In this document: positions 5,820 through 37,960 of the stretch, in pieces
Numbering within the stretch: the stretch's first letter is position 1
Layout of the letters: the number at the start of each line of letters is the position of its first letter
Assembly: GCA_001972305.1 (NCBI GenBank)
Contig: BDDD01000020.1
Coordinates: forward strand, 515,981 to 579,980
From: Cephalotus follicularis
Taxonomy: Eukaryota > Streptophyta > Magnoliopsida > Oxalidales > Cephalotaceae
Direction: 5' to 3'
DNA: 64,000 nucleotides
Made by a program: the position numbers and the translations under genes
The notes under the pieces: generated by a model
Seen by the model: the letters and a program-made list of their open reading frames with translations, nothing else
Databases searched by the model: none
What the model was told of the DNA's origin: nothing

Positions 5820-6020
5820 AAAGCGTCGACGTTTTTCCCCTGGGCGTCGACGCTTATGTCCTCTAAGTGTTGACGCTTGATCCTTGGCGTCAGCGCTTTC
5901 TATACCTTAGGCATCGATGTCTTCTCCCATAAGCGTCGACATTTAAAAATGCATTCAGTAAGTAAAATGCAGTTCACAGTACAAAGCGTCGACGCTTTCC
6001 AAAGGCGTCGACGTTTTCAA
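5820..6020. repeat. GCGTCGACGC word array 1 in LTR-J
   Basis: Five exact GTCGAC cores plus variants (gtgttgacgc, gcgtcagcgc, gcatcgatgt). The first two words start 21 bp apart. The flank just to the left, with 'catacaaatgctcaa', matches the left flank of the CAGTCGACTG array in the Gyp-G LTR. Confidence 0.85.
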
Positions 6021-6789
6021 GTATCAGTCGTCTTCTTCCTCGCGACATGACAAGACAGTAACGTTTCCACCATAATAACATGCAATCCAACATGTATATA
6101 CCCCAGAAAACAGACGTGAAACATCACATTACACATCCAGTACAACATGGCATAAATTCAGGGACCCAAAACAGTTGAACAGGCCATGCAATCCATGCAT
6201 AAACATCACTGAACATACACCAATATTGAACACAAAATACAAGTATGGCTTCCCCTACCTTTGGCTTCAAGTTAGAAGCCAAAAGTCCACCTCTCTTAGT
6301 ATCCAATAAGTCACTTTGAGTCCCCAGGTTCGGCCTAAAGGTTCCCTGGTTCGTCCCAATAGTCGTTGTCCGAGCTCTAAGCTTCCTTTGCTCAACAATG
6401 GTGGCTGGGCTTCCTCTCTAATTTTTCTGCTCTCCTTTGTCACTCATAGTGTCTCTAAACTCTATGGCTTTCAATAACAGATGAGAGTGAGGTAAGAGAG
6501 CCAACTTTATGCCATATCTCCTTTTGTTTCACTTGCATGCACCCACCATTTCCTTCCCTTCTCTTTCTTGTGCAACATGGTGCAACAGGTGTCAATATCT
6601 TCTTCTTCCCAGTCCATGCATGTTCACATGTCCCTTCCCTTCAGTCCCTTTTCAGTCCTGGGAAGTCAGACGCCATATTGCATGCATAACACATCTCTAA
6701 AGTACCTGCCAAGATGCTTCATGTGTGGCACAAACATTCCACCATGCAACACGTCTATCTACTGTTTGTGCATATCAGAACCATGAAGT

Positions 6790-6955
6790 AAAGCGTCGAC
6801 GTTTACATGCAGGCGTCGACGCTTAAAGCATTTTGCCTAAAGGGCATCGACGTCATTAACAGGCATCGACGTGCATGTGCATGGTTCACATGTGCATCAT
6901 TGCTGCGTAGGCGTCGATGCTTTCAAAAAGGCGTCGACGCTTTTAACCCAAAACT
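6790..6955. repeat. GCGTCGACGC word array 2 in LTR-J
   Basis: Six words (GCGTCGACGT, GCGTCGACGC, GCATCGACGT twice, GCGTCGATGC, GCGTCGACGC); adjacent pairs start about 20 bp apart. The right flank ('atcaacatca ... ggaaaacatcatcaaa') matches the right flank of the second Gyp-G array. Confidence 0.85.
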
Positions 6956-7124
6956 GTGTCGTTTTACTTCAAATTGCACCTTTAACATTTCTATTCCAAA
7001 ATCAACATCATTATAGTTTGGAAAACATCATCAAAGTCGGGAGCTCTGACATTCTCATTAATTCCATGATAAGGTTACATCGGAAGTTAAATTATTACAA
7101 TGTATGAAATTCCCGAGCGTTACA

Positions 7125-7550
7125 GTTGCTTATATATATATATATACTGTTTTCAAATTGTAAACTGCCATGCATGATTACATTCATTTATTCATGTTCA
7201 TGCATAACTCCTACTTAGCCAAGTGAGGACAAACGCTAATACCTACTATTTCAGATTGATGAAGTGAAGTAGAGACAAGCAACTGAAGCTATACCTTGGA
7301 AAGCTTCTTATTTAAGGTTGTTAATGTTGTAATGTAATAAAATCATACTCCTTTGTTGTATTTACATTTTCATATGTATTATATAACATGTACTGTATTG
7401 AGCTTATGCACGTTGTATGGGTTGTGTGTGGATGCACTTTTATATAATCCAGTATGAATGATTGCTTTCGCAAAGTTTTAAATTTTTAATTATTGGTAAA
7501 TACTGGATTAAATTGATAACCATGTGTTAAACTGAAAATGGGGCATGACA
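7125..7550 (+). mobile_element. Gyp-A 5' LTR, right piece
   Basis: Resumes after LTR-J with a short TA repeat (7131-7147) and ends 'ggggcatgaca' at 7550, immediately before a priming site. The same end, inverted, is found at 27956-28331, which helps show where the Gyp-A 3' LTR went. Confidence 0.8.
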
Positions 7551-7554
7551 GACA

Positions 7555-7566
7555 TGGTATAAGAGC
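7555..7566 (+). other. Primer binding site of Gyp-A (tRNA-Met type)
   Basis: TGGTATAAGAGC, one base from the plant initiator tRNA-Met complement TGGTATCAGAGC, four bases after the LTR end. A second, perfect TGGTATCAGAGC lies at 7638-7649 in a similar context ('acatggtat'). Confidence 0.75.
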
Positions 7567-7779
7567 TTATAATAATTTATAGGCTATCATTGGGATACTA
7601 TCCTCAGCAATCAAATGATTGGATACCATGACAAACATGGTATCAGAGCATATTGCATATATGTCTAGCTTGGACAAGTTCCATGGAAACTAAGTGAATT
7701 GTTTCCTGATGATTAACATCATCATCCTTATAGGAAACATAAAGGATCACCGAAAGGAAAACGTGGATGTGTAAGGTTC

Positions 7780-8220
7780 CTACCTTACCGCGTCGATGTA
7801 AAGGAATCATGAAAAGTAGAGTCTATTCCTTATCTAAAGAAGATATACCATATACGAAGTTTATTGGCTCGTGTATTGATTGACCCTGGGGCTATGCATT
7901 CATTCATTGCATCATATTTTTTTGGCAACTTGCATTGTTTGACCTCTTGTTGTCTTATGTGCTAGAGGCAAGTACTCCAACTAGAGGCTGCCTATTGACT
8001 CATACTGTACTGAATGACTATGAGATCACAATAGATGAAGTTCAGTTATTCGCTGATCTGATTGTATTACCGATCCGAGATTTCGATGTTATCTTGTGGA
8101 TGGACTTGCTCTACACTTATCAAACTTGTGTAGACTGTTACAATAAGGATGGTGTTGATGCCAATAGCCCTGTTTTAGTGAAACTTCCTGGTTTTGCATG
8201 GATTTTGATTCTGATTTAGA
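7780..8220 (+). pseudogene. Gyp-A protease remnant (retropepsin-like)
   Basis: Plus-strand fragments match the aspartic protease region of chromodomain Gypsy elements: 'IDPGAMHSFIA' near 7880 corresponds to the usual DSGA-type active-site region, and 'LPIRDFDVILWMD' near 8065 to the typical LPxxxFDVILGMDWL block, which Gyp-G also shows at 33900-33950. Such a protease would cut the Gag-Pol polyprotein. The element is heavily decayed with many breaks, and no gag is recognisable upstream. Confidence 0.7.
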
Positions 8221-8559
8221 CCGGGCTAGTTATTAAGCCTCTGAAATGGCGCCCAAGGCTGCCAAGTAGTCTAGACTTGCCTGGAAGGCTGACCTTAAGA
8301 AGGCCGACCTCCTGAAATCCTATGTGATATACGTAATGAAATGACAGTGAGGGCTATGAACTGTATAGAGATTTAAGTGACCGATCGAATAAGCCGTGAT
8401 GGCTAAGTGATCGATCAAATGGACCGAAAGGCATAAGTCTTCTCTGAATATTTTTGTATCGAATAGTGGTTGATCGAGATAGAATGCAAATGGTCATTGC
8501 AAATGTGTAGTCTATATATGATTATGGGTGGCTAGCGTATTGTCATCGATCGTATCGTA

Positions 8560-9060
8560 TAGTTATGGACCATTGTTGAACGGTTAGTGACCGAATGGAC
8601 CGTTGTTGAACGATTAGTGACCAAATAGACCGTTGTTGAACGGAATGGACCATTACTGAATGGATAGTGATCGAATGGGCCGTTGGTTGAACAGATAGTG
8701 ACCGAATGGACCGTTATTGAATGGTTAGTGACCGAATGGACCGTTATTGAAGGGGTAGTGACCGAATGGACCGTTGTTGAACGGATAGAGACCGAATGGA
8801 CCGTTATTGAACGGTTAGTGACCGAATGGACCATTATTGAACGGGTAGTGACCGAATGGACCATTGTTGAATGGATAGTGATCGAATGGATCGTTATTGA
8901 ACGGACAGTGATCGAATTGACCGTTATTGAATGAATAGTGATCGTAAGGGCCATTATTTAATGGATAGTGATCGAATGGACAGTTATTTAATGGTTAGTC
9001 ATTGAATGGACCTTTACTGAATGGTTAGTGAACGAATGGACTGTTATCGAATGGATGGGC
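8560..9060. repeat. 30-bp minisatellite inside Gyp-A
   Basis: Sixteen or so units with an exact 30-bp period over most of its length (from 8701 to 9000 two units fill each 60 bases). A typical unit contains ACCGTTATTGAACGGT, a potential hairpin with a 6-bp stem (ACCGTT/AACGGT), followed by tagtgaccgaatgg. The divisibility of 30 by 3 gives long repetitive open frames on both strands, which are not genes. It stands in the part of the element where reverse transcriptase would be expected. Confidence 0.9.
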
Positions 9061-9194
9061 ATTACATCGATGCTCGAAATAGATTGTGAAAGAACTGATA
9101 GGACGGTTAACTACTTATATCTGTTGGTATGGGACAGTATATGTATTTAGTCAACGACTCAATGTCAACTACATATGGAGTTTACCTTTAGATT

Positions 9195-9345
9195 CCTAGT
9201 GGAGTGCAAAATGGCTATGAATCATAAATGGATATGGATTGTAAAGGGATATGGACCGTAAATGGATATGGATTATAAATGGATATGGACCATAAACAGC
9301 TATGGACTGTAAACGGATATGAAATGTAATGGATATAGCACAATC
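9195..9345. repeat. 18-bp minisatellite inside Gyp-A
   Basis: About seven copies of a unit like atggatatggaccgtaaa with an 18-bp period and degenerate ends. It follows the 30-bp array within the same element but has a different unit. Confidence 0.8.
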
Positions 9346-10194
9346 ATGGATTGATATGGGACGAAAGGCCCTGGATGATGGTATATGGTGGAGTTGCTGA
9401 TGACGTATTGTGTTATGGCGTATATGAATATGAAATGACATTGTTCATATCTTTTATGTTAGGTATGCATCTCACATGATCGATATTATATATATGTCTG
9501 CTACACATCTGCTCACATTCATTGCTTTTGTATATTGTACACGGCTATCGGTTGTTGGCCTGTTTCATTGCAATGAAGTGGGCCAGGTTCAGGTTCAGAT
9601 GACAGCTACAGTGATTAGTCAGGACAAGCGCAGGGTAAGAAATTACATTTCTCCAGCCTATCTTGTAATATATGAATAAAGTAAGGAAACATATATTTTG
9701 AGGCTTGTTATTGATCATTATATGACATGCCGGCTCGTGCCAGTGCTGTTATAGATATGAGTTTGATGTATTGTATATGCATGATCATTATATTGATGAG
9801 TTAAGATGATTATCCTCCATATATTATAATAGATTCCATTGATATGATTATATTTCGCATGCGTATGATATTACTGGATATGATAAATCGCATCACTGAG
9901 TTGAAAGGATTGTCCTTCGCATGCAAATGATATATTGGATTTAGTTATGATGTAGCCTAGTACGGGCTGATCCCTCAGAAATAGATTAGGAGGAGACATG
10001 AGAGTTGATCCCCAAATATATAAACTGTGGTTATCAGGTGGCATGGAGTCCGATAAACGGATACTACATGCCCGATTTTCAGGAGATCCTAAAGGTATGA
10101 TTTTTAATGGGTATCCATACTGATTTTATATATTGTTTGAGGTTTCCGCTGGGATAATCTGATTGATAAGGATTTTAGATTATAGCACTTTGAG
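9346..10194 (+). mobile_element. Gyp-A internal region without recognisable domain
   Basis: Plus-strand internal DNA between the minisatellites and the pol end. Frames are short and I recognise no reverse transcriptase, RNase H or integrase motif. The context (protease upstream, pol end and polypurine tract downstream) makes it decayed or replaced pol sequence. Confidence 0.5.
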
Positions 10195-10400
10195 GAATAC
10201 GATTTATATGAGTTAAGGATGGATATGAGTCTTGGAGAGATACCTATCTGGGTGATCGATCATCGAGGCAAGCAATTGAGAAAGGACATTTCATTGGTGA
10301 AAGTGTGATGGTAATACCATGGGCTTGAAAAGCCGCGTGGAACGTGAGGAAGAAATGAAGGCATTCTACCTTCACATGTTTTAACATAGGGAATATCGAG
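10195..10400 (+). pseudogene. Gyp-A pol C-terminal remnant
   Basis: Plus-strand reading near 10220-10310 includes 'GEIPIWVIDHRGKQLRKDI' and 'SLVKV', matching the stretch after the integrase in plant chromodomain Gypsy elements (usual form E-x-P-V-x-I-L-D-R ... LVKVLW). It lies just before the polypurine tract, as expected for the end of pol. Confidence 0.7.
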
Positions 10401-10411
10401 ATGAGATTTCT

Positions 10412-10426
10412 CGAAGGAGGGGAGAA
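10412..10426 (+). other. Polypurine tract of Gyp-A
   Basis: Purine-rich GAAGGAGGGGAGAA just before the 3' LTR start TGTAATTCTCCG; in the family this primes second-strand synthesis. Confidence 0.75.
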
Positions 10427-11784
10427 TGTAATTCTCCGAAATTTCGTAAATAATTATTACGATATTGGTACAGTGTATGGCCGTGATAAAGCCAGGCCCG
10501 GAGCAATAAAAGCATTGCGCATTGAAATGGCAATTATAAGGCCCAAAATGGCTAATAAAGCCTATTTTTAAAGCGCATCTGTAAGGCTCAATGTTTTCCT
10601 TATTATTGCGGTTATTTTAGTGGTAGATGGACTAATTAATATCGCAATTCGTGGAATAAACGGGACCCAGGTCTTAATATTTTGCTGGTAAATACCAACA
10701 AAGAAAGGGGGAAATCAAAAGAAGGAAAGAAGGAAAGGGGTCACGGGCGCATGATGCACCCGTGCAAAAGAAAGAAAGGAGATAGAGGTGAGAGAGTGGG
10801 AGAGAGTAAAGGAGAGAGAAAGAGAGAGAGCGCCAGAGACGACGCTGGAGCAAGCCACCGGACCATGAGAGGAGGGCGAGCAACCTAGGCGCTCCAACCG
10901 ACGGTAACCTCTTCCCTCTTCTTCTTTTTTTTCTTTTCTTTTCTTCTCATCCCTGATGCTGATACTGTCGGCCGGATGATTTCGATGATTTTAGCATCAC
11001 TGATTCAGTGGGTCTTTGTCTAGGAGGCCAGCTCTGCCCATTTCGATCACCGTTGAGGCGTTTCACGGCCTGAATTGGCCGAAATCAATCGACTAAGTCG
11101 ACTCAGCGAGCTTGACTCGCTGTCGCCTGAGAACGTGCGTCTGGCGTCGAGTCTTGGTGAGTCTTGGGAAGTGGTGTGTAAAACTGATGGTCGTGTGGTG
11201 TTTTTGGGTGGTGATTGGACTTGTTGAATCTGGCGAGTCGACTCAGTGAGTCGAACTCATTGCCAGCCATGTCACAGCGTTTGGCGCCGAGTCACAGTGG
11301 GTCTTGAGTGGTTCTGAGTAGCTCGTTCAATTTGGAACCAGTTTATGGGTGTTGCACAAGCTGGGTGAGTCAGCAGGAATCTGGCCGGCGTTCTGGTGAC
11401 CGCAGTGTTGGTTTCTATGTGTCAAACGTAATTGAAATGTGTTGTATGTGCAGTGAGCGAGCTGGTAATTGGGTTCGGTAGTGAAGGGAAGTGATAATCG
11501 ATAGTTGGCAGCAATTTGGAAATGTTCGACAATTGAACCTACAGCTCGACTGTACTATTGATACTGCTTTAAAAGGTAGGGTTTATGACATGTTTATGAA
11601 GATATAGCATGTATATTGTGTTATGGTGCCTAGTTTGTGCTTGCATGTTGATGTTAAATTGTTAAATCCCTGCTTGCTTGAACTGATTTCTAGATTGCAT
11701 ATCCTGTTATGTATGATTTACGTTGATGCCAAAGTTACATGTTAACTCCTTACTAAGGTAATCGATGGTTTACCTGTTTGCGTT

Positions 11785-12060
11785 TGATTCTCGTCGACGC
11801 CATGGAAGGATAACGTTGACGTTTAAAGCTACTGCTTTAGAAAACGTCGATGCCAATAAGGAACGAATTTACGCGTAGGGTTCCTACCTTATCGCGTCAA
11901 TGCTAAGGAGAAATGTTAACGCTTAAGGTTCCTACCTTAATGCATTGGTGTCTAGTGGTAACCTTGACGCCTACGATACACGTTAATTCCAAGAGAAGGA
12001 ACATGTTGACGCCTATATAGACATCGAAGCCTAAAATGCACGTTAACGCCATCCTGCACC
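11785..12060. repeat. Degraded GTCGAC word array in Gyp-A LTR
   Basis: Words like CGTCGACGCC, CGTTGACGTT, CGTCGATGCC and GTTAACGCC recur with irregular spacing. Only one exact GTCGAC core remains; the others mostly differ by transitions, as expected if methylated CpG sites decayed. Confidence 0.65.
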
Positions 12061-12814
12061 AGTGGATATTCTGTATTGTTTATGCTTGATTGCATTGAGT
12101 ATTGAATCCTTGATCTGATAGTGTTACCGTTATGCAAGTATATATTGCTACTGTTACAGATATTGCATATCTATCAAAGTGTTTTGTAAAGACTATTGCA
12201 TCAAAGTGATTTCAAGGATTTCAATGATCGAATGCTATATGCATGTCTTAAGGTTTTCAAATATTGTTTTAAAGAAAACCTAGTGTTATTAAAATGATTT
12301 CTCCAAATGAAATTATTGAAGTGTTTTATTGTTTCTTAAATCAAACTCAGTGCAGTGTTACTGTTCTCTTAAAAGGGAACTTAATGAAATGTTTTATTGT
12401 TTTCTCAGATGAGATTTTACCAAAGTGGTATCGTTTTCTCTACCAAAGAGTACTTATTGTTATATTACATTATATATTTAATTTCAGTGAATTGATTGTG
12501 ATTCATGTGATGCTGATAGTTTAGTGATAGGAGTGTATCACTGACTACGGCTGTGAGCCTAGGTGCCAGGAGATGGCTAGAGCTCATTCACCAAACATCG
12601 GCATTGCAAATCTCTTTGAGTGTGCCCACGAATCGCCGGCAACAGTGTTTACCTTTTCTATCATCACCGGAGCACATGGTGGTAGTTAGGTGGTGCGCAG
12701 TCGGTGCTAGGAGTTAGCGACATGTGTCACCCACCCAGTGGAATGGTTGTTTGTACCCTTGTGCGGTATTATTGATAAGTGATTGTTTATAGCTATTTGG
12801 CATTGTTGCTTATA

Positions 12815-12872
12815 TATATTGACACACACAAATACACACACAGATATATATACATATACATATATATACTGT
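12815..12872. repeat. CA/TA microsatellite in Gyp-A LTR
   Basis: Alternating acacac and atatat runs at the place where the 5' LTR copy has a plain TA repeat (7131-7147). It gives rise to a spurious 168-codon frame that also runs into LTR-X. Confidence 0.85.
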
Positions 12873-12901
12873 TTCCAAATTGTAAACTGTCATGCATGAT
12901 T

Positions 12902-15900
12902 TGTGACAACCCGCTCCCGAGACGTCACAAGGAAACTGGGTTGACTTTAACCATAAACCATCGCACAGACTGGTCATATGAAAAACCTCCTGTCATCTCC
13001 TCCTCGTACTTTTTTTCCTTTCCTCGCACGTCACGAGAGCAGAGGACTGGACGTCCACCTGCGCCTCGGCTGCCCACTGCACCGGACTGGCGCCACGCGC
13101 CAAGGTCCTACCTATCCTTTTCTTCCACGACAGAGGACCCGAACTACAACGACAAGGACATAGCATCCGTGCATACACACATACATGATAAAGGAAAGAG
13201 TAGAAAGAGACAAACATTTTATCGTGGTTCGACACAGAATAGCCTACGTCCACTTCCTCAATCATCCATGAGGCCACTAGTATGAAGTTCATTACATACG
13301 GGGTTACATAGCTTAGCAAAAATAGAGAATGAAAGGATAACCACACCGGCCATCCATGGCAGAGAAGCCGCACCAGACCTCATCATTCAGGGAAGCTATG
13401 CCAAACCAGAAGCCACTGCTCAACAAGACCTGAGGAGAGCACCCCAAGGATGTATTATAGAAAGGAGCAGGGGACTTCAACGAGAGGAGAGCCTCAACTC
13501 ATCGTAACATTAAACCCTCAACACTGTCTTCCAAAACACCAACAACGCACCGTATCACTTAAAACCCAAGGGGGCACCCACGAGCTCGACACGTGATCAC
13601 TTAACACTGTCTTCCAAACACACACCGTATCACTTAAGCCTAAGGAGAGAACCCACGTGTTCTACATGTGATCACTTAACACTTTGGTCTAGGGCCAGGG
13701 GAAACACATCTTCCACAGACCTTCTCCTCTGGACCCTTGATCACCACCTTTACAATATGCCATACGACAATACCAGACCACAAGTACTGTAAGGTGCAAC
13801 CTCTGCAAGGTACAAAACAATAAGCCAGACCACAAGCATTGCCTGCCCAGTAGCTCAGGACTTCAAGGGTACGCACCCCTACGACGTAGTTTAGCAAGTT
13901 TGTCATGTCTGCCTTCATGCATCATCCACAATAGCAAGGTGAAGAATGCCACAACAAGTGCACTACCTACCCGCGGAGATGCCATAGACACCTGCCCACT
14001 ACAGAGTACCAGATCATCCACGGAACAACAGTCCATCCACGGATATCAAACCATCCATAGATGCCAACCCACTCCCAGCACCAGTCCAGGTAGCCCGAGG
14101 AGATTCACGCCTAAGAAGGAAACTTCAACAAAACACCCGGGAAGCCACTTTGCTCGGTCAACCCCCAAGGAGACCACTACACAAGCGATACCCGAGGAGA
14201 CCACCACACAAGCAAATGCTCGAGAAGATCATCGCACAAGCAATCATCACACAGCAACCATCAAACAAGCGATGCCCGGGGAGACGCTACACTCAGCCAT
14301 GCCCGGGGAGACAATACATTCAGTAAAGCCTGGGGAGACCACCACAACAGCAAAGCCTGGGGAGACCACCACAATAGCAATGCCTGGGGAGACCACCACA
14401 ACAGCAAAGCCCGTGCACAAAGGAATGATAACGTTTAACATAAACAATGCCTGGGATCGACACAAGGCCCGGGGACAACGCCAAGCATTAGGACAACTAC
14501 CTGAGGCCCCACCAATAGTCGATTTACACTATGGAGATGAAATCTCACCTTGGCCCAACACCCAAGAGATCCACCTAGGCTCACCCAACAGAACATCTTC
14601 AGGGACCGAGCTGGTCAGAGGTCGAGAGGACGGCCAAAACTAAAGAAAACTCCATACTCTCACACTGCCACAGCTAGAACCATCTCAGCAAGCAGAAATA
14701 ACAACTCCGTTGAACGTCCATCGACATGTTCATGGGATACAGGACTGTAAACATCCTTCATATACGCGTATAGATACCCACTTCCAGAACACCGCATGAA
14801 CATCGACAGAAGGGCTATGCGAGCACTCCTTCCCCGACAATGACACGTTTAGCGCACTTCACTACATGAACATCGATCGTGGGGCAATGCAATCCCACCC
14901 CCATCGTCAATCACGAGCTCGACACTACCAAGGAGACACATCAACTGGCAAATGCTCAAGAAGATGCTTGACATGCATTACTCACCAAGGGACGCCCGAC
15001 ATGGACTACTCTTCAAGGAAAACTTACCATCCACTGCTCAGGAAGAGATGTACATTAAACTGATTCCTCTGCCACGACGCACATCGTACTAACTTCCCGA
15101 CAAGAACACGCATCTTACTTGGCCATGACAGTTGTATTCATCACATAAATCTGAGGAACCTCGTCTACCCAGAATCTAAATGCTAAACACAACTCAGAAA
15201 ACATCTCAACACAAAATGGTTAAGTTAGTAATAACCATAAACGAAACCACAGTGAAATGTCACATACCTGGGTCTCTCAAGACCAGTTCCTGAAACGCTT
15301 ACCAGTTCCTTGGAACTTTGAATCTCCCCACTGGATTCATCACATTCCAAGAACTCGAACAGCCCACCAAGAGCATGGGATCTACCAGAGGTATCCACGT
15401 TTCACTATCTCAAAAGTCAAACATACCAAGAATACCAACTCACGGCTCAACATACTGAGGAACTTCGAATCCACCATACCACACTAGGGTAAGAACATCA
15501 AAGACCAGCGAGAATCACCTTCAACGACGTTTGACTACTGAAGAAATGAAGAAGAAGAGAAACAAGACTTGTAGAAGTGATGATCAGTCACGCCAGAAGG
15601 ATCCAATGAAAGAGGAAGCTTGAACCTCACAGGGAGTACTCACGACTCACCCGGACAAATTTCACACCGCGCCTTCCCTTTCTTCCTTCTTCTTCCTACC
15701 TACTTCTCACATACTTCCTCTCTTTTCTCTTCCTCTCTCTAACTTCCTCTTTCTTTTTCTTACTTTTCCCCCTTGATATCCTATTCTGCCCAAGGTGCCA
15801 GACATCACTTCACATACTCTCCCTGACACACGTCTTTTCACACTAGAAACCGTTAGCTTCTCTTGTAAGCTTCACATATGGGCTTAGTCAAAATAAATGA

Positions 15901-18544: not shown

Positions 18545-18885
18545 TGAGGTTCACCTGCCTATGGAATTCACCCTTTGGTTCACCCACCGAGTGGAATTCA
18601 CCCTTTTGGTTCACCTGCTCTGGCGAAATTCACCCTTAGGTTCACTGGCTCTGGCGGAGTTCACCATTAGGTTCACCCATTAAGCAGGATTCACCCAAGG
18701 ATCACCTGCCTATGGAATTCACCCTTAGGTTCACCTACTCTGGCAAAATTCACCCCTTAGGTTCACCTGCTGATCAGAATTCACCCTTAGGTTCACCTAC
18801 TCTTGGCAGAATTCACTCCATTTGGCCTCATCTGCCCGGGACAGCCTCTATGTGGATTCACTTTTTAAGTTCACCTACTATAGCA
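18545..18885. repeat. GGTTCACC...GAATTCACCC minisatellite in Gyp-B LTR
   Basis: Roughly ten degenerate units of about 30-35 bp, each with 'aggttcacctgctctgg' and 'gaattcaccctt'. The homologous array in the second LTR copy is at 26800-27065, so it belongs to the family. Confidence 0.85.
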
Positions 18886-21854: not shown

Positions 21855-22165
21855 TTTAGGCGTCAACGCCTTAATATGTACGCGTCGCTTAACGTCTAAG
21901 CGTCAATGTTTTGCGCTAGGCGTCAACGGCTAAAGCAATATGCCTTAAGCTTCAACGCATGTCTCTAAGCGTCAACCGCTTATTATAGATAAGGCGTCAA
22001 TGCTTTAGGCTAAAGCATCAACGCTTATGTCCATTTTCCCTTATCGCGTTAATATGCTGTATAGAATAGCGCACAAACGCACAAGGCACATAGGCGTAGA
22101 TGCTTAAACTGAAAGCGTCGACGCTCTGGGCCCTGAAGAACACGTCAACATGTACAAAGAACACA
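21855..22165. repeat. GCGTCAACGC-type word array in Gyp-C LTR
   Basis: Words such as AGGCGTCAACGCC, AAGCGTCAATG, AAGCGTCAACCGCTT and one exact AAGCGTCGACGCT near 22112. The core is mostly GTCAAC, one transition from GTCGAC. Here the array lies downstream of the TATA box on the minus-strand reading. Confidence 0.75.
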
Positions 22166-26799: not shown

Positions 26800-27065
26800 T
26801 TCACCCTTAGGTTCACCTAAATTAGTTTGATTTCTATATGAGGTTCACCTACCCTGCAGAATTCAACCTTAGGTTTACCTGCTCCGGCGGAATTCATTCT
26901 TAGGTTCACCTACTAAGCGGGATTCTCCCGAGGTTCACCTGCCATGCGTAATTCACCCTTAGGTTCAACTGCTCTGACAGAATTCACCCATTATTGGGCT
27001 CACCCGCAAGGGACAGTCTCTATGCGGAATTCACTCTTAAGTCCACCTGCTATAGGATGTCACTA
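26800..27065. repeat. GGTTCACC...GAATTCACCC minisatellite, second copy
   Basis: Counterpart of 18545-18885, about seven degenerate units of 'aggttcacctgctccgg' and 'gaattcaccctt'. Confidence 0.8.
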
Positions 27066-27070: not shown

Positions 27071-27102
<32 letters not shown>

Positions 27103-27104: not shown

Positions 27105-27114
27105 CATAAGGTGG

Positions 27115-27955: not shown

Positions 27956-28331
27956 TGTCACACCCCGTTTTCTGTTTAACACATGGTTATCAATTTAATC
28001 CAGTATTTACCAATAATAAAAAATTTAAAACTTTGCAGAAGCAATCATTCATACTGGATTATATAAAAGTGCATCCACACGCTGCCCATACTAAGTGCAT
28101 AAGCTCAATACAGTGCATGTTATATAATACATATGAAAATGTAAATATAACAACGGGGTATGACTTTATTACATTACAACATTAACAACCTTAAATAACA
28201 AGCTCTCCAAGGTACAGCTTCAGCAGCTTGTCTCCATTTCACTTCGTCAATCTGAAATAGTAGGTATTAGCCTTTCTCCTCACTCTGCTAAGTAGGAGTT
28301 ATGCATGAACATGAATATATGAATGCAATCA
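27956..28331 (-). mobile_element. Gyp-A 3' LTR tail, inverted and displaced
   Basis: Begins TGTCACACCCCGTTTTC and is the reverse complement of 7180-7550 (including 'taacacatggttatc', 'atgcataactcctacttag' read in reverse). It ends at 28331 with AATCA, the complement of the TGATT that ends the front part of the same LTR at 12901. It is set into the Gyp-B LTR at 27955. Confidence 0.85.
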
Positions 28332-28592
28332 AGTAATACCCGAGTACGGTTCAACAGCTTTGCTCTATAGTGTATGTATTCATTGTGGACTTTGAAATAC
28401 CTGGCCAGGTTACGACGAACTGGAACCTAGGGTTTTGAGAAAGGCTTGTCGATAATCATGATGGTAAAATACGGATTTATAGATATCAGCATATCTAAGG
28501 TTAACACGTATCCTTACCCTAGGTGGTGATCGGAGCAACGGATTACAAGAGATTATAGTACACGGTAACTATCGTCAGGATAAAGTATCGGA
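28332..28592 (+). other. Scrambled junction: LTR-X head fragment joined to a Copia LTR piece
   Basis: 28332-28359 resembles the first bases of LTR-X (AGTAATACCCGAGTACGG against TGTAATACCCAGGTATGG). From about 28360 to 28592 it is Cop-1 LTR sequence ('ctatagtgtatgtattcattg' to 'gtatcggatg'), matching 48030-48270 and, in reverse, 16130-16375. At 28593 LTR-X starts again. This looks like a patchwork left by break repair during the inversion. Confidence 0.7.
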
Positions 28593-28819
28593 TGTAATAC
28601 CCAGGTATTAATTTGCACACCCGGTGTATGGTTTTGCCAAAGATTTTCTTGTCATCAGCTGGTTAAGGCCTGGTTTGGGCTTTGCTATTTTTCCTTGATG
28701 CGTTTTTGGAAGTCCTCTATTGTGCCACAAGGCCCAAAGTGGTGGTTATTGGGAATAGTCGTTTATTTTGACTAAGCCCATATGTGAAGCTTACAAGAGA
28801 AGCTAACGGTTTCCAATGT
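28593..28819 (+). mobile_element. LTR-X, right copy, first piece
   Basis: Starts TGTAATACCCAGG, contains a short Copia-derived patch (about 28606-28628), then reads as the reverse complement of 15855-16030 ('attttcttgtcatcagctgg', 'aagcttacaagagaagc'). Gyp-G follows; the LTR resumes at 38122. Confidence 0.8.
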
Positions 28820-29399
28820 GACGCCACCAACTCCTGGCCCCACGCTACACTCCCACTCCGGTCCCTACTCCAGGCAACCGAGCGAGGCAACAGTACATTG
28901 AGTTACCCAGTCATACTCCTGGCCCCTAGGGCAACCCTACCACTAACCGGCGCTGGCAGCCTCCGCCATGCAGCTAGTGGATCAAGCACAAACACATAAC
29001 CATTCACAGATCAAACAGTGAATTCAAGCAGTAACAGTACAGTAAACAGGACTGTAGTGATCGTTTAGATCCACAACAGGCAGGTTATTCCCAAAATGTT
29101 TCAAAAGTGACAACATTTGAAATATTGCATTTTCAGTAGAAAATACGTTTAAACAGTTTCAGTAGTGGAAATCGCTTTCCAAAGATGTTTGAAAATACGA
29201 TATCAATATTCATATAGCATTTCCAATTTACCTATGGATTTCTAAGTAGCATCACATTAGAAATCATAATCCAAGTACAAACGGGCAGTAAACAGTACAT
29301 ATGCAATGCATACAAATGCTCAAATGCATCCTAGCAGGAATTAGGATCGTTTCGCATCATTTTAGGAAAACATCAGTCCAACCAGTTAGCTGGAATCAT

Positions 29400-29645
29400 T
29401 ACAAGTCGATTGTTTTGGGTCGAGAAGTATCTGTAGTCGATTGGTTCATTCTACCAGTCGACTGTCCATTAGGCAGTCGGCCGTTGTTCTTCAACAGTCG
29501 ACTATTACAGTGTACCCATACGAGAACATTCCCAGATTGCCATTTCTGGGCAGTATGAAGTATGAACAGTTGACTGGTTTCCATTGGCAGTCGATTGGTC
29601 TCATTCAGTGGTCGACTGTCTTCCTTCGACAGTCGGCTGCTCTGC
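29400..29645. repeat. CAGTCGACTG word array 1 in Gyp-G 3' LTR
   Basis: Three exact GTCGAC cores plus GTCGAT, GTCGGC and GTTGAC variants in words like CAGTCGACTG, with spacers close to 10-12 bp in several places. Confidence 0.85.
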
Positions 29646-30444
29646 GAACCAGTGGCATGCAAATCGATCTAACCACTCCAACGGATCATGGTAAGTAGAT
29701 AACTTAAGCTCAGGGACAGGAAATACAACTACAAGTTGTCATATCATCCATATAACAGTTTATCCAACATTCATTTCATCATGCAAGCCAAGGACATATA
29801 AGGTTCAACATGCATGCCCAATAATCACATTGATTCTCAGTAGGCAGGCATAGCAGTTGGAAACAGTAGTAACCACATTCAAAATTCAGTACCTACAACT
29901 CACAAACCAGGAATTTCGAATCATGGAACATGTAGTAAGTTTAAACACAAAATGCAATTACAACTTCCCCTACCTTTGATTCCAAGTTAGGAATCTGTAA
30001 GTCCACCTCTTTGCCTTCCAATCAATGACGTTATGAGCTCTCCAGAAGCTCCAACTCCAAGCCCAGCAGCCCCAAGGACAGCTCCAACCTTGAGCTCCAA
30101 GCTTTAACAATGGAAAAACACTCCTCTTCCCTCTTTTCTTGTGGTTTCTCTTACAATTCTCTCTGGTTCTCTAACTTTTTAGTACTAGTACGAGAGGGGT
30201 GAGTGAAGACGTTTTTATGCAGAGTCTTTTCTCCCTTTATCCCTTCACATAGCACTAAGGCCACATTCCCTCATCACATGTATGCACACACTCACAGGTC
30301 TGATTTCTCTGCCCCATGAAGTTTTGCATGATGCACAGGTGTCCTCTCCCTCCATCCTCTCGGCTGCATGCAGCACAGATGGCCTCCACTTCCAATGTCA
30401 GTTGTAACATGTGATTTATGTCACATGCAAGAAATAGGGCATGA

Positions 30445-30605
30445 TCCAGTCGGCTGCCTTTCCCTGGCAGTTGGCTGTTTGCCTGGCAGTCTGTTGCCAA
30501 GTGTCATGACAGTTGGCCAGTCGACTGGTTCTTCCTACCAGTCGACTGCCCCCATATGCAGCCATCCAGTCGGCTGGTCCTCCATACTAGCCGACTGCCT
30601 CTAGT
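30445..30605. repeat. CAGTCGACTG word array 2 in Gyp-G 3' LTR
   Basis: Eight or so words (CAGTCGGCTG, CAGTTGGCTG, CAGTCGACTG twice, CAGCCATCCAGTCGG and others). Several neighbours start 21 bp apart, one pair 28 bp apart. Confidence 0.85.
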
Positions 30606-30773
30606 ATAATTACCAAGTAATCACACTTCTAAGTATATAATTGATTAAAATCAACATCACCTTAAATTGGGAAAACATCATCAAATTCAGAAAAACCCAT
30701 CATTTTATTAATTCCACAAATAAGGTACAATTACATTGTGAAATTACAGTACATGAAAATCACGGGCGTTACA

Positions 30774-30800
30774 TCCACCCCTCCTTCAAAAAAATTTCAT
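30774..30800 (-). other. Polypurine tract of Gyp-G
   Basis: The plus strand reads tccacccctccttc next to the LTR end; on the element's strand this is GAAGGAGGGGTGGA directly before the 3' LTR. Confidence 0.75.
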
Positions 30801-30809
30801 CCCCGAAAT

Positions 30810-32385
30810 TCAAAACGAGACTTGAACAGGTGCGGGTAGCGCTCTTGGATATCCTCCTCCCGCTCCCAAGTTGCTTCATCAGGTCGGTGGAACTGCAACT
30901 GAACCTTGACCATGGAGATGGTTCAGTTCCTCAAAATCTGTGTCTTCCGATCAAGAATCCGCACAGGGAATTCCTCATAGGATAGATCATCTCGCATCGA
31001 AACAGTATCATGATCCAGGACATGTGACAGGTCCAGGACATATCTTCTCAGCATAGATACATGGAAGATGTCGTGTACGTTCGACAGTGTGGGAGGTAAA
31101 GCAAGCTGGTAGGCGACCTCTCCGACTCTCTCCAAAATCTCGAAAGGACCAACGTAGCGAGGAGATAATTTGCCTTTCTCCCAAACCTTTGCACGCCCTT
31201 CCATGGTGAAACCTTCAAGAACACATGATCACCCATACTGAAGGTTAAAGGCCTTCTCTTGACACTATCCGCACAGCTCTTCTGCCGACTTTGAGCAGCA
31301 AGCAGCTTCTTTTTTATCGACCTGATCTTTTCTGAAGTTTCCTCCACTAATTCAGTCCCGAGTAAAGGTCGCTCCCCGACCTCATCCCAACACACAGGAG
31401 ATCTGAACTTCCTCCCATACAGTGCCTCAAACGGTGCCATGCCGATACTGGAATGATAGCTGTTATTCTATGAGAACTCTATCAGAGGAATGTGATCCTC
31501 CCAAGTACCAGCAAAATCAATAATACAGGCCCGTAGCATATCCTCCAGGGTCTGGATGGTATGCTCAGACTGCCCATCGGTCTGAGGGTGGAAGGCAGTA
31601 CTGAGGTTCAGCTTCGTCCCGAAAATTGTCTGAAATCTCTTCCAGAAGTTGGAAGTGAAGATGGCATCTCTATCACATAAGATACTGACTGGAACACCGT
31701 GTAGCCTCACTATCTCCGTTACACACAAATGAGCTAGCTTGCTGGCAGAATCGGTAACATGTGTAGGCAGAAAGTGTGCTGATTTGGTGAGTCTGTCCAC
31801 GACAACCCACACGACCTTGTGATGGTTCCGAGTCAGAGGAAAACCCGAAACAAAATCCATCGTAACATGTTCCCACTTCCACTGTAGAATTGGAAAAGGT
31901 TGCAACAAACTTGCCGGTCTCTAGTGCTCGGCCTTAACTGTCTAGCAAGTCAAACACCTTGCCACATACTCGGCGATCTTCCGCTTCATACCGGGCCATC
32001 GGTAACACCTTTTCATGTCTTGATACATTTTAGTGCTACCAGGATGAATACTGTACAGAGATTTATGAGCCCCGCGGACTAACTCATCCTTCAGTCTTGG
32101 TTCATTCGGAAGACACACTCGTCCTCGATATCTCAGAATACCATCAGCATGCACCCGAAAATCGGATTCCGAGTCCAGGTTCCCTCGAATCCGTTCCAAC
32201 ACCGGATCAGGTGGTTGTGCATCCCTAATGTGATCCAGTAACACAGGTTGTACCCGCATGTCGGCTAGAAAGATCCCCGGTGACTGATTAAATGGAGACC
32301 ATTCTTGGAAGTCTTCTAACATCTTCCATTGCGACACCATCGCACTGGCAAGCATAGCCTTGCAGCTCAAGGCATCAGCGACCAC
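30810..32385 (-). pseudogene. Gyp-G integrase and C-terminal tail
   Basis: From right to left: the end of the RNase H block at 'MVADALSCKA' (near 32380); zinc-binding region ('GAHKSLYSIHPGSTKMYQDM', 'CRWPGMKR..' and a CLTC pair, 31945-32110); catalytic core ('WEHVTMDFVSGFP', 'WVVVDRLTKSAHFLP', 'HGVPVSILCDRD', '[20 protein letters not shown]', 31470-31880); then '[15 protein letters not shown]', '[20 protein letters not shown]' and '[14 protein letters not shown]' and an [10 protein letters not shown] tail (30930-31440), the part preceding the chromodomain-like end. The role in the family is insertion of element DNA. Broken. Confidence 0.88.
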
Positions 32386-33690
32386 ATTCGCTTTCCCTGG
32401 GTGGTAATGGGCACTGTAATCATAGTCATTAAAGGATTCTACCCACCTGTGCTACCTCATGTTCAGTGTATCCTGACAAAACAGGTACCTCAAACTCTTG
32501 TGATCGGTAAAGATCTCAAACTGCGCCCCATAAAGATAGTTTTACCACTTCTGAAGGGCGAAGACAATAGCCGCAAGCTCAAGGTCATGAGTCGGGTAGT
32601 GTTCTTAATACGGCTTTAGCTTCCTCGAGGCATATGCAATCACTCTGCCTCGCTGCATCAATACACAGCCCAAACCCTTACCTGATGCATCACTATACAC
32701 TGCAAAGCCTTCATTACCATCAAGTAGTGCCAAAGCAGGAGCAGAAACCAACCGATCCTTTAGTTCACGAAAACTAGCCTCACAGTTTTCGTCCCAGACA
32801 AAAGGAGTCTTCTTCTGGGTCAGTTTAGTCAAGGGTTCGGCTATCCTTGAAAATTTTTGGATGAACCTCCTGTAATATCCTGCCAATCCAAGGAAACTGC
32901 GCACCTCCGTCACATTCTTCGGTTGCGGCCAGTCTCGTACTACTTCAGTCTTTGACGGATCCACCGCCAAGCCTTCTCCAGGTACTATGTGACCGAGAAA
33001 GATCACATGGTCAAGCAAGAACTCACACTTGCCAAACTTGGCATACAACCGGTGTTCTCTAAGAACTTGCAATACTAGCCTCAGATGATGAGCGTGCTCC
33101 TCCTCGCTCCTCGAATATACTAGTATGTCATCAATAAACACCACAACAAACTGGTCCAGGTATGGTAAGAATACCTCATTCGTCAATGACATAAAAGCTG
33201 CCAGTGGATTGGTAACACCAAACGGCATCACCAGGAACTCGTACTGACCATACCGTGTTCGGAAGGCAGTCTTCTCAATGTCTCCTTCCCTTACTCGCAG
33301 TTGGTGATAACCTGACCTCAAGTTGAGCTTGGAAAACACCCTCGATCCTTGCAACTGATCAAACAACTCCTCAATGTGGGGTAAAGGATACTTGTTCTTG
33401 ATAGTTGCCTTGTACAACATTCTGTAGTCGATACAGAGCCTCATCAACCCATCCTTATTCTTGACAAATAGTACAGGTGCACCCCACAGAGAAACACTGG
33501 GTCTAACAAAACCATTATCAATCAGATCTTGTAACTGTAGCTTCAGCTCTCGTAACTCAGTCGGAGCCATCTGATAGGGTGACTTAGAGATAGGAGCCAT
33601 TCCAGAAACAAGATAAATAACGAACTCCACACTCCTCTTCGGTGGTAAGGATCCCAAATAATCAGGGAACACATCCGGAAATTCGCACAC
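32386..33690 (-). pseudogene. Gyp-G reverse transcriptase-RNase H region
   Basis: A long open stretch shows the classic Gypsy RT: '[12 protein letters not shown]', '[17 protein letters not shown]', '[20 protein letters not shown]', '[18 protein letters not shown]', then the catalytic box '[20 protein letters not shown]' (F-I-D-D), '[18 protein letters not shown]', '[14 protein letters not shown]' and the start of RNase H ('[18 protein letters not shown]'). The RNase H part continues to the left with DHKSLR-type and '[13 protein letters not shown]'-type remnants around 32380-32530. It would copy element RNA into DNA. Fossil copy. Confidence 0.92.
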
Positions 33691-33699
33691 AACTGGAAT

Positions 33700-34200
33700 T
33701 TCCTACAAACTCAACCCTTTCTCCTTCCTACGATCAATCACATATGCCAAGTATCCCTCGCATCCTTTCTCTAGGTATCTCGATGCTCGAATAAAAGATA
33801 TGATCGGTGTCGAGAACCCCTTGTCCCCTTTGAACTGAAAAGTCGTTCTATCGGGCAGACAAAAATCCATAGTCTTATGGTAGCAATCCATACGAGCACG
33901 GTGTGCCGATAGCCAATCCATCCCCAATATAACATCAAAGTCACGAATAGGTAGCACAATCAGATCTGCATACAAAGGAATGCCTGCCATAAAATCTCAC
34001 AACTCCTATATACCGAGTCAGTATACATGGAAGTCCCAGTCGGTGTACTCACATCAAGTATGTATGACATGCAGTCAGGGGTAACATCTAAACAAGATGC
34101 AAAACGTGCAGATATAAAGGAATGTGATGCTCCAGAATCCATCAGTACCGTAGCAGAATAACCATATATATACAGAGTACCTCAAACAACAGAAGTCGAC
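33700..34200 (-). pseudogene. Gyp-G protease region
   Basis: 'MDSGASHSFISARFA' (near 34100-34140) is the aspartic protease active site (D-S-G-A), followed by 'ADLIVLPIRDFDVILGMDWLSAHRARMDC' spread over 33870-33970. Retropepsin-type protease of the Gag-Pol polyprotein; lies between Gag and RT as usual in Ty3/Gypsy. Confidence 0.88.
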
Positions 34201-34319
34201 TCTGGAACCTCTGTCTGAGCAAGTACGAAAATTCTACCTTTTGCGATGCCCTTGCCGGTATCTCTCCTATGTGACGTTCCCGCCGCCGCACCGTTGCTAC
34301 TCCCCAGCCCAGTAGGCGT

Positions 34320-35395
34320 TGTAGCAGGACTCTTTGGACAGTCCTTCACTGAATGACCAGGTGCTCCGTACCTCCAGTACCAACCATTGAATCTCCAGCA
34401 ATCTTTTTGTTGGTGGCCGGTACGACCACAATAATAGCATCCTCCAGATCTAGCATTACTCCCCTGGCTAGGAGTACCCTATGAAGTTATCTGTTGAGAC
34501 TTGTTCTTCGATGACTTTGTCGGAGAACCACCATCTTGCCACTTTGGCGATGCCAGTCGGGACTGTGTAGGACTCTGTTTACTATCCTTTGTACGAGCTC
34601 TCTCAGCCCAGTCTTCACTGGATATGGTCTCCAACAGTCTTACTTTCTGGGCAACCTCCACAAAAGTCCTCAGCTCAATAGCTTTGATCCTTGACCGAAG
34701 ATCTGGTCGCAGACCTCTCAGGAATCTCCAAATCTTCTTCTCCTTATCATCTACCAGATATGGTGAGTGTCTAGCCAGCTCCATAAATCTTGCCTGATAC
34801 TCAGCCACAGCCATCTCTCCCTGTCGCAACTCCAAGAGCTCCGTCTCTCGTCGCTCTTGCTCAATACGTGGAACATAAGTCTCCAAGGACTCCGTCTGAA
34901 ATCTGTCCCAAGTACTGTCCAGTCTTTCCGATTCCCATTTTTCTTTAACCATTTCCCACCAATGAGTGGCCTCACCCCATAGGCGGTATACAGCAAACTT
35001 CAGCTTCTGAGCATCAGTATAGTCCATCACTTCAAAGATCTTCTCCAAGTCTTGCAGCCATCTCTCAGCAACAGTAGCATCAAGTTGTCCCTTGAAGCTG
35101 GGTGGATTCAGCCTCATCAACTTCTCAATATCTCTCCCAAACTGGGTACCATCCTCCCCCAGGCAAAGGTCGGGAGCCCTATGTTGTGGTCGATCTTGCG
35201 CGTAGTACTAGTGCATCTCCTCCACGTTGGCCCTATTAAAGGCCACCTGTTGCTGAAAGTAATCCACAATTCGGGCCATCGGATCTCTTTCATCTTTGGG
35301 AATATTCATCCCTTGCGGAACATTAGCTTCCTCAGGGCCATTAGCTCCAACGGCTCTAGCCCTAGCACGTGTCCTCCTTCGGTCCATTGTTCCTA
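34320..35395 (-). pseudogene. Gyp-G Gag (capsid and zinc knuckle)
   Basis: Minus strand. A start region near 35390 with arginine-rich 'MDRRRTRARARAVGANG' is followed by the retrotransposon Gag domain: 'PPSFKGQLDATVAERWLQD', 'KIFEVMDYTDAQKLKFAVYR', 'WGEATHWWEMVKEKW', 'QARFMELARHSPYLVDDKEK', 'FLRGLRPDLRSRIKAIEL' (34600-35110). A zinc-knuckle region (CYYCGRTGHQQ-like) lies at 34330-34450. In the family, Gag forms the virus-like particle around the RNA. Fossil copy. Confidence 0.88.
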
Positions 35396-35481
35396 TAAGA
35401 AGGATGACGGTCAGTCAGGACTTTAGGAAATAATTCATTAATTGCCAAGGAAAGTATCCTAGCAAAGCATACATGGAATAT

Positions 35482-35493
35482 GCTCTGATACCA
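35482..35493 (-). other. Primer binding site of Gyp-G
   Basis: GCTCTGATACCA, the exact complement of TGGTATCAGAGC (initiator tRNA-Met type), five bases from the LTR start at 35499. Confidence 0.85.
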
Positions 35494-36754
35494 CTCTTGT
35501 CACACCCCGTTCAAGAGAAAATGACATTAAAGCAGTAAGGGCAACTAACACGTAAAATACAGCTCATGTAAAACCCATAAAATTTAAACTTTAAACCAGA
35601 AATCAGTTGCGAAAGTATTAAAAATCCATAAGCTCTAACCCATAACGTGCATCCCATACTCCACGCTACCCGACAAGTCATCATTGTTAATCTCTCACAA
35701 AACATAGTGTGATTACAGTACAAGTTTAAAATCCCTCATCAAACAAATCCGTAAATACGGTACATCAGAAATCCTTTAACAACTTAGTTATTACAAAACA
35801 GGAGAATAGAACTAAGAACAACATAACACTTGCTCTTCGTCCATGCCAATCCAACAATCCACTGCATCAATCTGTAAAGTTGGGGGTTAGCCTTTGTCCT
35901 CAGTCGCTTAAGTCATAAAAGTAGTCCGGGATTAAAATTAAATACATGTCATGATATGGATGCAGGGATGATGCAGTGTAGTAGAAATTCCAGTTTATAT
36001 ATATACGAAAATATATATATTTTCCGTACGGTAAAAATAGCAGTGGGTACATATATAAGAAAATATATGTATGCAGGAACAGTACAGTAGTAACCCAGCC
36101 AGAGATACATCAACAAGCACAGTAATGTCCGAGAAGGACCAACTGGCAGTACATGATGTCCACATAGGACCACAACAAAAGGCAGTATGTGTAACGCCGC
36201 CAACTCCTGGCCCCATGCTACACTCCCACTCCGATCCCTACTCCAGGCAACCGAGTGAGGAAACAGTACAGTGAGTTACCCAACGATACTACTGGCCCCT
36301 AGGTCAACCCTACCACTAACCGGCGCTGGCAGCCTCTACCATGCAGCTAGTGGATCAAGCACAAACACATAACCATTCACAGAGCAAACAATGAATTCAA
36401 GCAGTAACAGTACAGTAAAGAGGACAGTAGTGATCGTTTAGATCCATAACAGGCAGGTTATTCCCAAAATGTTTCAAAAGTGGCAACATTTGAAATATTG
36501 CATTTTCAGTAGAACATACGTTTAAACAGTTTCAGTAGTGGAAATCGCTTTCCAAAGATGTTTGAAAATACGATATCAATATTCATATAGCATTTCCAAT
36601 TTACCTATGCATTTCTAAGTAGCAGCACATTTGAAATCATAATCCAAGTACAAACAGTACAAACAGGCAGTAAACCGTACATATGCAACGCATACAAATG
36701 CTCAAATGCATCCTAGCAAGAATCGGGATCGTTTCGCATCATCTTAGGCAAACA

Positions 36755-37025
36755 GTCGTCCAACCAGTTGGCTTGAATCTTTACCAGTCGACCGTTCTGG
36801 GTCGAGCAGTATCTGTAGTCGACTGGTTCCTTCTACCAGTTGACTGTCCATTAGACAGTCGGCTGTTCTTCTTCATCACTCGACTGTTACAGTGCACCCA
36901 TACGAGAACATTCCCAGATTACCATTTCTGGGCAGTATAAAGTAGGAACAGTCGACTGCCTTCCATTGGCAGTCGACTGGTCTAATTGAGTAGTAGACCG
37001 TCTTCCTTCGATAGTCGGCTGCTCT
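36755..37025. repeat. CAGTCGACTG word array 1 in Gyp-G 5' LTR
   Basis: Four exact GTCGAC cores and several variants (CAGTTGGCTT, CAGTTGACTG, CAGTCGGCTG). It begins about 50-60 bp after the 'catacaaatgctcaa' anchor that it shares with LTR-J, which has GCGTCGACGC words there. Confidence 0.85.
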
Positions 37026-37789
37026 GAGAACTAGTGGCATGCAAATCGATCTAACCACTCCAATGGATCATGGTAAGCATATAACTTAAGCTCAGGGACA
37101 GGAAATACAACTACAGGTTGTCATATCATCCATATAACAGTTTATCCAACATTCATTTCATCATGCAAGCCAAAGCCATATAAGGTTCAACATGCATGCA
37201 CAATAATCACATTGATTCTTAGTAGGCAGGTATAGCAGTTGGAAACAGTAGTAACCACATTCAAAATTCAGTAGCTACAACTCACAAACTAGGCATTTTG
37301 AATCATGGAACATGCAGTAAGTTTAAACTCAAAATGCCATTACAACTTCCCCGACCTTTGATTCCAAGTTAGGAATCTGTAAGTCCACCTCTTTGCGTTC
37401 CAATCAGTGACGTTCTGAGCTTTGCAGAGGCTCCAACTCCAAGCCCAGCATCTCCAAGGACAGCTCCAACCTTGAGCTCCAAGCTTCAACAATGGAAAAA
37501 CACTCTTCTTCCCTATTGTCTTGTGGTTTCTCTTACAATTCTCTCTGGTTCTCTAACTTTTCAGTACTAGTACGGGAAGGGTGAGTGAAGACATTTTTAT
37601 GCAGAGTCTTTTCTCCCTTTCTCCCTTCACATGGCACTAAGCCCACATTCCCTCATTCACATGTATGCACACACTCACAGGTCTGATTTCTCTGCCCCAT
37701 GAAGTTTTGCATGATGCACAGGTGTCCTCTCCCTCAATCCTCTCGGTTACATGAAGCACAGATGGCCTCCTCACATGCAACAAATAGAG

Positions 37790-37960
37790 CATGATCCAGT
37801 CGGCTGGCTTTCCCTGCAGTTGGCTGTTCGCCTGGCAGTCTATTGCCAAGTGTCACGACAGTTGGCCAGTCGACTGGTTCATCCTACCAGTGGACTGCCC
37901 CCATAGGCAGCCATCCAGTCGGCTGGTCCTCCATGCCAGTCGACTGCCTCCAGTATAATT
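37790..37960. repeat. CAGTCGACTG word array 2 in Gyp-G 5' LTR
   Basis: Counterpart of 30445-30605; two exact GTCGAC cores with GTCGGC, GTTGGC and GTGGAC variants, many starting about 20-21 bp apart. Confidence 0.85.

Follow-up and report, generated by a model that had tools for sequence, protein, structure and literature searches.

How do two homologous long terminal repeats (LTRs) come to carry different repeated words at corresponding places, and what are such words for? This question is raised by a 64,000-nucleotide stretch of Cephalotus follicularis DNA (NCBI GenBank assembly GCA_001972305.1, contig BDDD01000020.1, forward-strand positions 515,981 to 579,980), hereafter the window, much of which is filled by nested Ty3/gypsy-like elements. 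A preliminary description had noted that the solo LTR-J and the LTR of the element Gyp-G align along their backbone while holding two arrays each of different words, and had proposed either replacement of the arrays as modules or fast concerted change of the word. The present sequence analysis covers this one 64-kb window, with six LTR types that contain arrays and belong to three backbones. It suggests, with a probability that we put at roughly one half, that the words are binding-site arrays for a sequence-specific DNA-binding protein that acts in trans on the LTR promoter and is probably a host protein, with two specificities for one GTCGAC core. For the difference between LTR-J and Gyp-G, turnover of the whole U3/leader block of LTR-J is favoured.

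Two words on a common core and one word type per LTR

The LTRs and arrays on which the comparison is based are the following.

4522..7124, minus strand: LTR-J, a solo LTR of 2,603 bp with the target-site duplication (TSD) GTTGC on both sides, assigned from its sequence and flanks
5823..6014, minus strand: array 1 of LTR-J, GCG words, leader side
6793..6940, minus strand: array 2 of LTR-J, GCG words, sense-upstream of a TATA-like site
35498..38121, minus strand: 5′ LTR of Gyp-G (G5), 2,624 bp
36785..37021, minus strand: array 1 of G5, CAG words
37797..37946, minus strand: array 2 of G5, CAG words
28817..30773, minus strand: 3′ LTR of Gyp-G (G3), without its sense 3′ end, CAG arrays at 29403-29639 and 30447-30597
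1..542, minus strand: first part of LTR-H, which runs off the window, CAG words of array 1 at 446-539
3186..4225, minus strand: second part of LTR-H, CAG words at 3194-3398 (array 1) and 3946-4081 (array 2)
543..3180, minus strand: LTR-K, a solo LTR with the TSD TGTCT and GCG words at 2622-2920, which interrupts array 1 of LTR-H
51367..53000, plus strand: 5′ LTR of element F (F5), CAG array at 52581-52744
55866..57461, plus strand: 3′ LTR of element F (F3), CAG array at 57042-57205, TSD CCTGG outside the element
58371..59946, minus strand: LTR-I, related to LTR-K, degenerate GCG words at 59698-59839

Both words are near-palindromic on the common core GTCGAC, the CAG word being CAGTCGACTG and the GCG word GCGTCGACGC. 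Exact copies number 13 and 8, respectively, whereas 100 dinucleotide shuffles had on average 0.04 and 0.00. Indeed, GTCGAC is the top-ranked 6-bp palindrome of the window (51 occurrences versus 6.3 expected), and among the 10-bp palindromes the CAG word (13 versus 0.03) and the GCG word (8 versus 0.00) are prominent alongside AT repeats. When up to two mismatches were allowed, neighbouring matches at 19-22 bp were found 38 times for the CAG word and 17 times for the GCG word, and in none of 100 shuffles. Over the whole window and for both words together, 55 of the 92 gaps of at most 100 bp measured 19-22 bp, with a peak at 21 bp, at the same two-mismatch threshold. A single helical phase over larger gaps was looked for across the window and was not seen.

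Furthermore, each LTR is pure in word type. CAG words occupy the LTRs of G, H and F, and GCG words those of J, K and I. With words in the preset arrays of the assigned LTRs accepted at up to two mismatches and classed by the nearer word, 63 CAG words (H, G5, G3, F5, F3) and 22 GCG words (J, K, I) were counted, and none of these 85 was of the other type in its LTR. LTR-J has 13 GCG words and no CAG word, G5 has 15 CAG words and no GCG word; this bears out the earlier observations that the two LTRs carry different words and that both arrays of one LTR agree. The hybrid words CAGTCGACGC and GCGTCGACTG are absent from the window.

Divergence of the promoter/leader block between LTR-J and Gyp-G

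The boundaries assigned earlier to LTR-J and the Gyp-G LTR hold, and so does the homology of their backbones: J and G5 agree at 72.0% over 1,330 columns of R/U5, at 71.1% over 128 columns of the LTR start and at 72.8% over 114 columns of a leader segment. The pair shows the conserved backbone with divergent U3 that was taken as the criterion of U3 exchange. The two anchors reported beside the arrays exist as well (left at 5739 and 36691, right at 7020 and 38019) and recur in the second Gyp-G LTR, but they lie ~70-80 bp from the arrays and do not adjoin them. Between the anchors nearly the whole promoter/leader block, a short leader segment excepted, is unalignable between J and G. More than the words has therefore changed, and the words do not differ on a constant background. 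A clean array swap between fixed anchors was ruled out by this divergence of the whole U3/leader block.

The LTRs fall into three backbone groups, namely J/G/H, K/I and F. Between these groups no match was found at E 1e-3 except that of G5 with F5 over the arrays themselves. Within the second group K and I agree at 69%, 66% and 75% over three segments, and their GCG words are in the sense-upstream part of the LTR.

The history of the J block was followed with informative sites among J, G5 and H. By local alignment, 109 sites of R/U5 join J with G, 32 join G with H and 41 join J with H, whereas the LTR start and leader gave 35, 37 and 18 sites, respectively (Fisher p 4.6e-5). Global alignment gave 125, 55 and 25 sites in R/U5 and 34, 42 and 18 in the start and leader (Fisher p 2.5e-4), in a conflict that rests on three sequences, of which H aligns weakly in R/U5 (54-55%). 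The sister grouping of J and G that R/U5 supports vanishes around the arrays.

The placement of individual words points in the same direction. Array 1 of G and array 1 of H are in register for 9 of 9 G words (p 0.012-0.014), and in the second arrays this holds for 6 words (p 0.06-0.14). Array 1 of J is out of register with both (p 0.88 or more), and its array 2 has no significant register with either (p 0.20-0.49). Against G itself, 4 of 8 words coincide in array 1 (p about 1) and 5 of 6 in array 2 (p 0.27-0.49). Accordingly, the statement that both LTRs have their words at the same two places is correct for the promoter layout but not word by word. Word conversion at fixed positions of J and G was likewise ruled out, as array 2 does no better than permuted gaps and array 1 has no register.

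Around the arrays J thus has either a history that differs from that of its R/U5 or a far faster rate of change, and either of these would fit a turnover that took in the block as a whole and so altered the two arrays together. We favour such turnover because the J-G grouping is lost around the arrays while G matches H in word type and in the register of array 1. Of the two options in the preliminary description, modular replacement is consequently the better supported, with the difference that the unit appears to be the whole U3/leader block and not the arrays alone. A search at E 1e-3 among the LTRs of this window gave no donor for the J block, none of K, I, F and H matching it. The word may have switched repeatedly; at least two changes would be required by the available trees, in which H stands outside J and G, and K/I and F are groups of their own. 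The integrases gave no clear placement of G, F and I (11, 10 and 12 sites out of 113).

Polarity, spacers and promoter layout

The words are near-palindromic, yet polar in the sense of the element. The sense form of the site is CAG[T/C]CGACTG or AA-GCGTCGACGC-YT. Of 43 CAG words (H 18, G5 17, F5 8), 18 have C at position 4 and 4 have G at the mirror position 7 (p 0.004), and when both LTRs of G and F were included these counts became 28 and 4 among 71 words. The 28 GCG words of J, K and I have 19 mismatches in the left outer pair and 4 in the right one (p 0.003). These p-values are optimistic, since words of one array, which may have been copied from one another, are not independent, and neither are LTRs of one family.

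The spacers of the CAG arrays consist of 66% purines in sense. Identity among 39 spacers was 0.407 within arrays and 0.319 for shuffled letters; between LTRs it was 0.362 where the word is shared and 0.366 where it differs. With G and H in word register, spacer identity was 36% in array 1 (z 2.2) and 20% in array 2 (z -0.9). Words persist here where spacers have diverged.

A TATA-like site has one array sense-upstream of it in J, G5, H and K, and in J, G5 and H it has a second, array 1, on its downstream side, in the presumed leader; TATA-like sites and positions were assigned by eye. By eye, no TATA-like site was seen near the array of LTR-I, and the sole array of each element F LTR lies far downstream. 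In the interval from the TATA-like site to array 1 there is a conserved segment with AAAGGTAGGGG or a similar sequence that resembles a splice donor. The leader segment common to J, G and H (6252-6280, 37349-37385 and 3577-3600) reads CTAACTTGGAATCAAAGGTAGGGG or similar in sense and is likewise splice-donor-like, upstream of array 1.

Decay of the arrays after insertion was assessed from the two LTRs of one element. G5 and G3 differ at 18 of 170 word positions, 26 of 262 spacer positions and 82 of 1,490 other positions, so that the spacers of the Gyp-G arrays (29403-29639 versus 36785-37021) differ more than the rest of the LTR. For F5 and F3 the corresponding figures are 1 of 80, 4 of 96 and 24 of 1,419. 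Exact words in families that are at least 28% different suggest upkeep in active lineages.

A DNA-binding protein as the putative partner of the arrays

Near-palindromic words with a kept core, neighbours at ~21 bp, loose spacers, a position at the promoter and sharing by unalignable LTRs together point to a protein that acts in trans. This protein would bind the words, and its binding would drive or permit transcription. It is probably a host factor, because Gyp-G has only gag-pol domains and several families carry the words. Gyp-G qualifies as a Ty3/gypsy LTR retrotransposon by the domains between its LTRs:

30774..35497, minus strand: Gyp-G interior with broken pieces of gag, protease, reverse transcriptase (RT), RNase H and integrase, identified by Pfam matches and reading frames

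The reading frames of this interior are broken, and its rve integrase core scores below the gathering score (25.8 versus 32.6). A Pfam search of its pieces returned no domain beyond gag-pol; antisense frames of 147, 99 and 99 amino acids were not part of this search.

The following mechanism would account for the arrays. The protein would be offered one site per ~21 bp, or two helical turns, with array 2 ahead of the TATA-like site in sense and, in J, G and H, array 1 in the presumed leader. Two specificities on the GTCGAC core would coexist. An LTR would change its word when its U3/leader block is exchanged as a unit, with template switching between elements as the probable route, and all words of one LTR would then be held alike by selection in the active lineage. 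The words may also have been kept in step with a changing DNA-binding partner, a possibility raised in the preliminary description, as the two word types share core, near-palindromy, polarity and spacing and differ in the outer bases. If the arrays do bind a protein, the LTR pairs whose word type differs on a shared backbone would be natural material for the study of how mobile elements change their regulatory partner, and the exclusive two-word pattern over unalignable LTRs would imply common trans-acting control of several families. Such control, if true, would bear on joint transposon activation or on escape from silencing.

Several observations weigh against the binding-site reading, besides the optimistic polarity p-values. 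One set concerns three degenerate GCG arrays that have no assigned LTR:

58018..58312, strand not given: degenerate GCG array
21860..22124, strand not given: degenerate GCG array
42646..42920, strand not given: degenerate GCG array with the two in-between words CCGTCGACGG and CCGTCGACAG

None of these three has a clear polarity (5:4, 1:3 and 4:3), that of LTR-I is reversed (1 left, 3 right), and the in-between words of the third array blur the distinction between the two word types, as do the many altered left halves in LTR-K. Twelve of the 92 short gaps measure 28-31 bp, so the spacing is not simply helical. The slight likeness of spacers within arrays (0.407 versus 0.362) is as expected from unit duplication. 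In element F the words changed no faster than the rest of the LTR (1/80 versus 24/1,419). Shielding of CpG sites in the words was not seen either in G, with 10 kept and 5 decayed in words versus 20 and 10 elsewhere, or in F, with 8 and 1 versus 29 and 2; the words of dead copies thus have no visible protection. Finally, the argument for a host factor applies to Gyp-G alone; in F and I parts of the interior were examined.

A more far-reaching proposal, possible in our view but unlikely, is that several Ty3/gypsy families of the genome have converged on, or exchanged, the two GTCGAC-core words as a shared address code. Two related trans-acting proteins, from the host or from another transposon, would each serve one word, and LTRs would change channel by swapping U3/leader modules, so that both arrays always match.

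Anti-silencing of the VANC kind is an improbable alternative. The arrays would be targets of a protein that another transposon of the genome encodes; this protein would take away silencing marks and evolve together with its motif. The available parts of PMC5735166 and PMC10398659 describe, for Arabidopsis VANDAL elements and their VANC proteins, short motifs in dense tandem arrays of a single orientation, which occupy non-coding DNA (introns and the regions upstream of genes) and are related yet distinct in related elements; coevolution with the binding protein is proposed. The polar words at two non-coding sites of the present LTRs resemble this, and dense oriented arrays with related types in related elements are present here, although polarity is absent in LTR-I and in the arrays without an assigned LTR. 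However, VANDALs are DNA transposons that encode VANC, whereas no such extra gene was seen in Gyp-G, with gag-pol domains only in the pieces searched. The words are, moreover, near-palindromic and common to unrelated families with different LTR backbones, while VANC targets are family-specific as described in those parts, and the missing CpG shielding also speaks against this alternative.

Less probable again is that the arrays have no function and are fast-evolving ~21-bp tandem repeats, shaped by slippage and gene conversion in a hypervariable U3. Hypervariability of U3 is documented in the accessible portion of PMC1838419, and spacers are somewhat more alike within arrays than between LTRs. 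Against this, the words persist while the spacers do not, the same two words are found in LTRs without an alignable backbone, and promoter position and polarity recur.

A factor of the DREB/CBF kind within AP2/ERF, through which the arrays would make the LTRs stress-responsive, comes next and is doubtful. In sense, the half-site G(T/C)CGAC agrees with the HvCBF1 motif (G/a)(C/t)CGAC, which is named in a title cited by PMC3602543, and the strict core [AG]CCGAC is found in 12 of the 43 CAG words in sense and in none in antisense. However, this core, the criterion for an array of dehydration-responsive elements (DRE), is found in none of the 28 GCG words, and we therefore leave the partner family unnamed in spite of the likeness. 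The looser [AG][CT]CGAC is nearly equal by strand (33 of 71 words in antisense, 43 of 71 in sense, all words), the conserved palindromic flanks would stay unexplained, and Rider did not respond to cold despite the CBF site in its U3, according to the section of PMC6762207 consulted.

Least probable is an action in RNA, with neighbouring words pairing as hairpins for packaging, strand transfer or small RNAs: three arrays did fold more stably as sense RNA than shuffles (z -4.6, -3.8 and -6.2), as palindromes must, and one F array holds a mutually complementary pair of variant words, but complementarity of neighbouring words was not clearly above that in shuffled order (p 0.10; 0.06 with G-U pairs), the common sense T-to-C change disrupts pairing, and array 2 precedes the TATA-like site in sense, although the 3′ end of the RNA does include U3.

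Comparison with known systems and outside collections

Diversification of U3 on a constant backbone has a precedent in the Ty1/copia elements Tnt1, Retrolyc1 and Retrosol of the Solanaceae, relatives that differ chiefly in the regulatory U3, which is termed modular evolution in the portion of PMC1838419 that we could use. Unlike that group as described there, the present elements are Ty3/gypsy, have two arrays of phased palindromic words, and share the same words among unalignable LTRs. Sites for host transcription factors in plant LTR promoters are also on record, such as those of the heat element ONSEN, the W-boxes of EVADE and the DRE/CBF sites of Rider (PMC12786077 and PMC6762207, in the parts available). 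These sites belong, as presented there, to elements of single families, whereas here arrays flank the promoter, the two words are mutually exclusive and several families are involved. In the open-licence literature we found, among the matches listed, no description of GTCGAC-core words with two exclusive flank types and two-turn spacing in unalignable gypsy LTRs, and a search for the letters of the words gave no retrotransposon paper by title among the matches listed.

A collection of viral contigs, which consists of phage and prokaryote data and has little bearing on plants, contained no pair of exact CAG words separated by 9-13 bp. It did contain 42 loci with one GCG 14-mer each and 12 loci with two facing half words. 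No array was present in these loci; only one (L046) has two GTCGAC pairs at 19-22 bp, and these are ~5.9 kb from each other. The RT of Gyp-G had no match in this phage and prokaryote collection.

Further features of the elements and of the window

Database relatives of the Gyp-G gag protein number 10 at E 0.001 or better, and each of the 10 is named as Cephalotus follicularis. TGGTATCAGAGC adjoins the Gyp-G 5′ LTR, and we take it to be the usual initiator-Met primer site. Element F has intact ends, but in its interior (53001-55865) the protease frame runs directly into the integrase zinc-binding domain; the RT is missing through internal deletion. An open reading frame across an F array had no protein relative at E 0.001 in the protein collection (1 candidate).

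LTR-K (538-3185) was inserted in a spacer between two array-1 words of LTR-H, and the words flanking it are 21 bp apart again once LTR-K is removed. LTR-I starts ~60 bp past the degenerate word array at 58018-58312. Still more degenerate small groups of words are found near 11.1 and 11.8 kb.

Two stretches of 27-bp tandem repeats, at 14268-14411 (no Pfam match) and 39518-39681, are in a stop-free frame (GEAMPGETT-like) in two related, inverted copies of another element. Further tandem arrays with a period of ~30-31 bp are located at 8565-9056, 18548-18816 and 26839-26989, with the words GGACCGTT/GAACGG and AGGTTCACC..GGAATTCACC.

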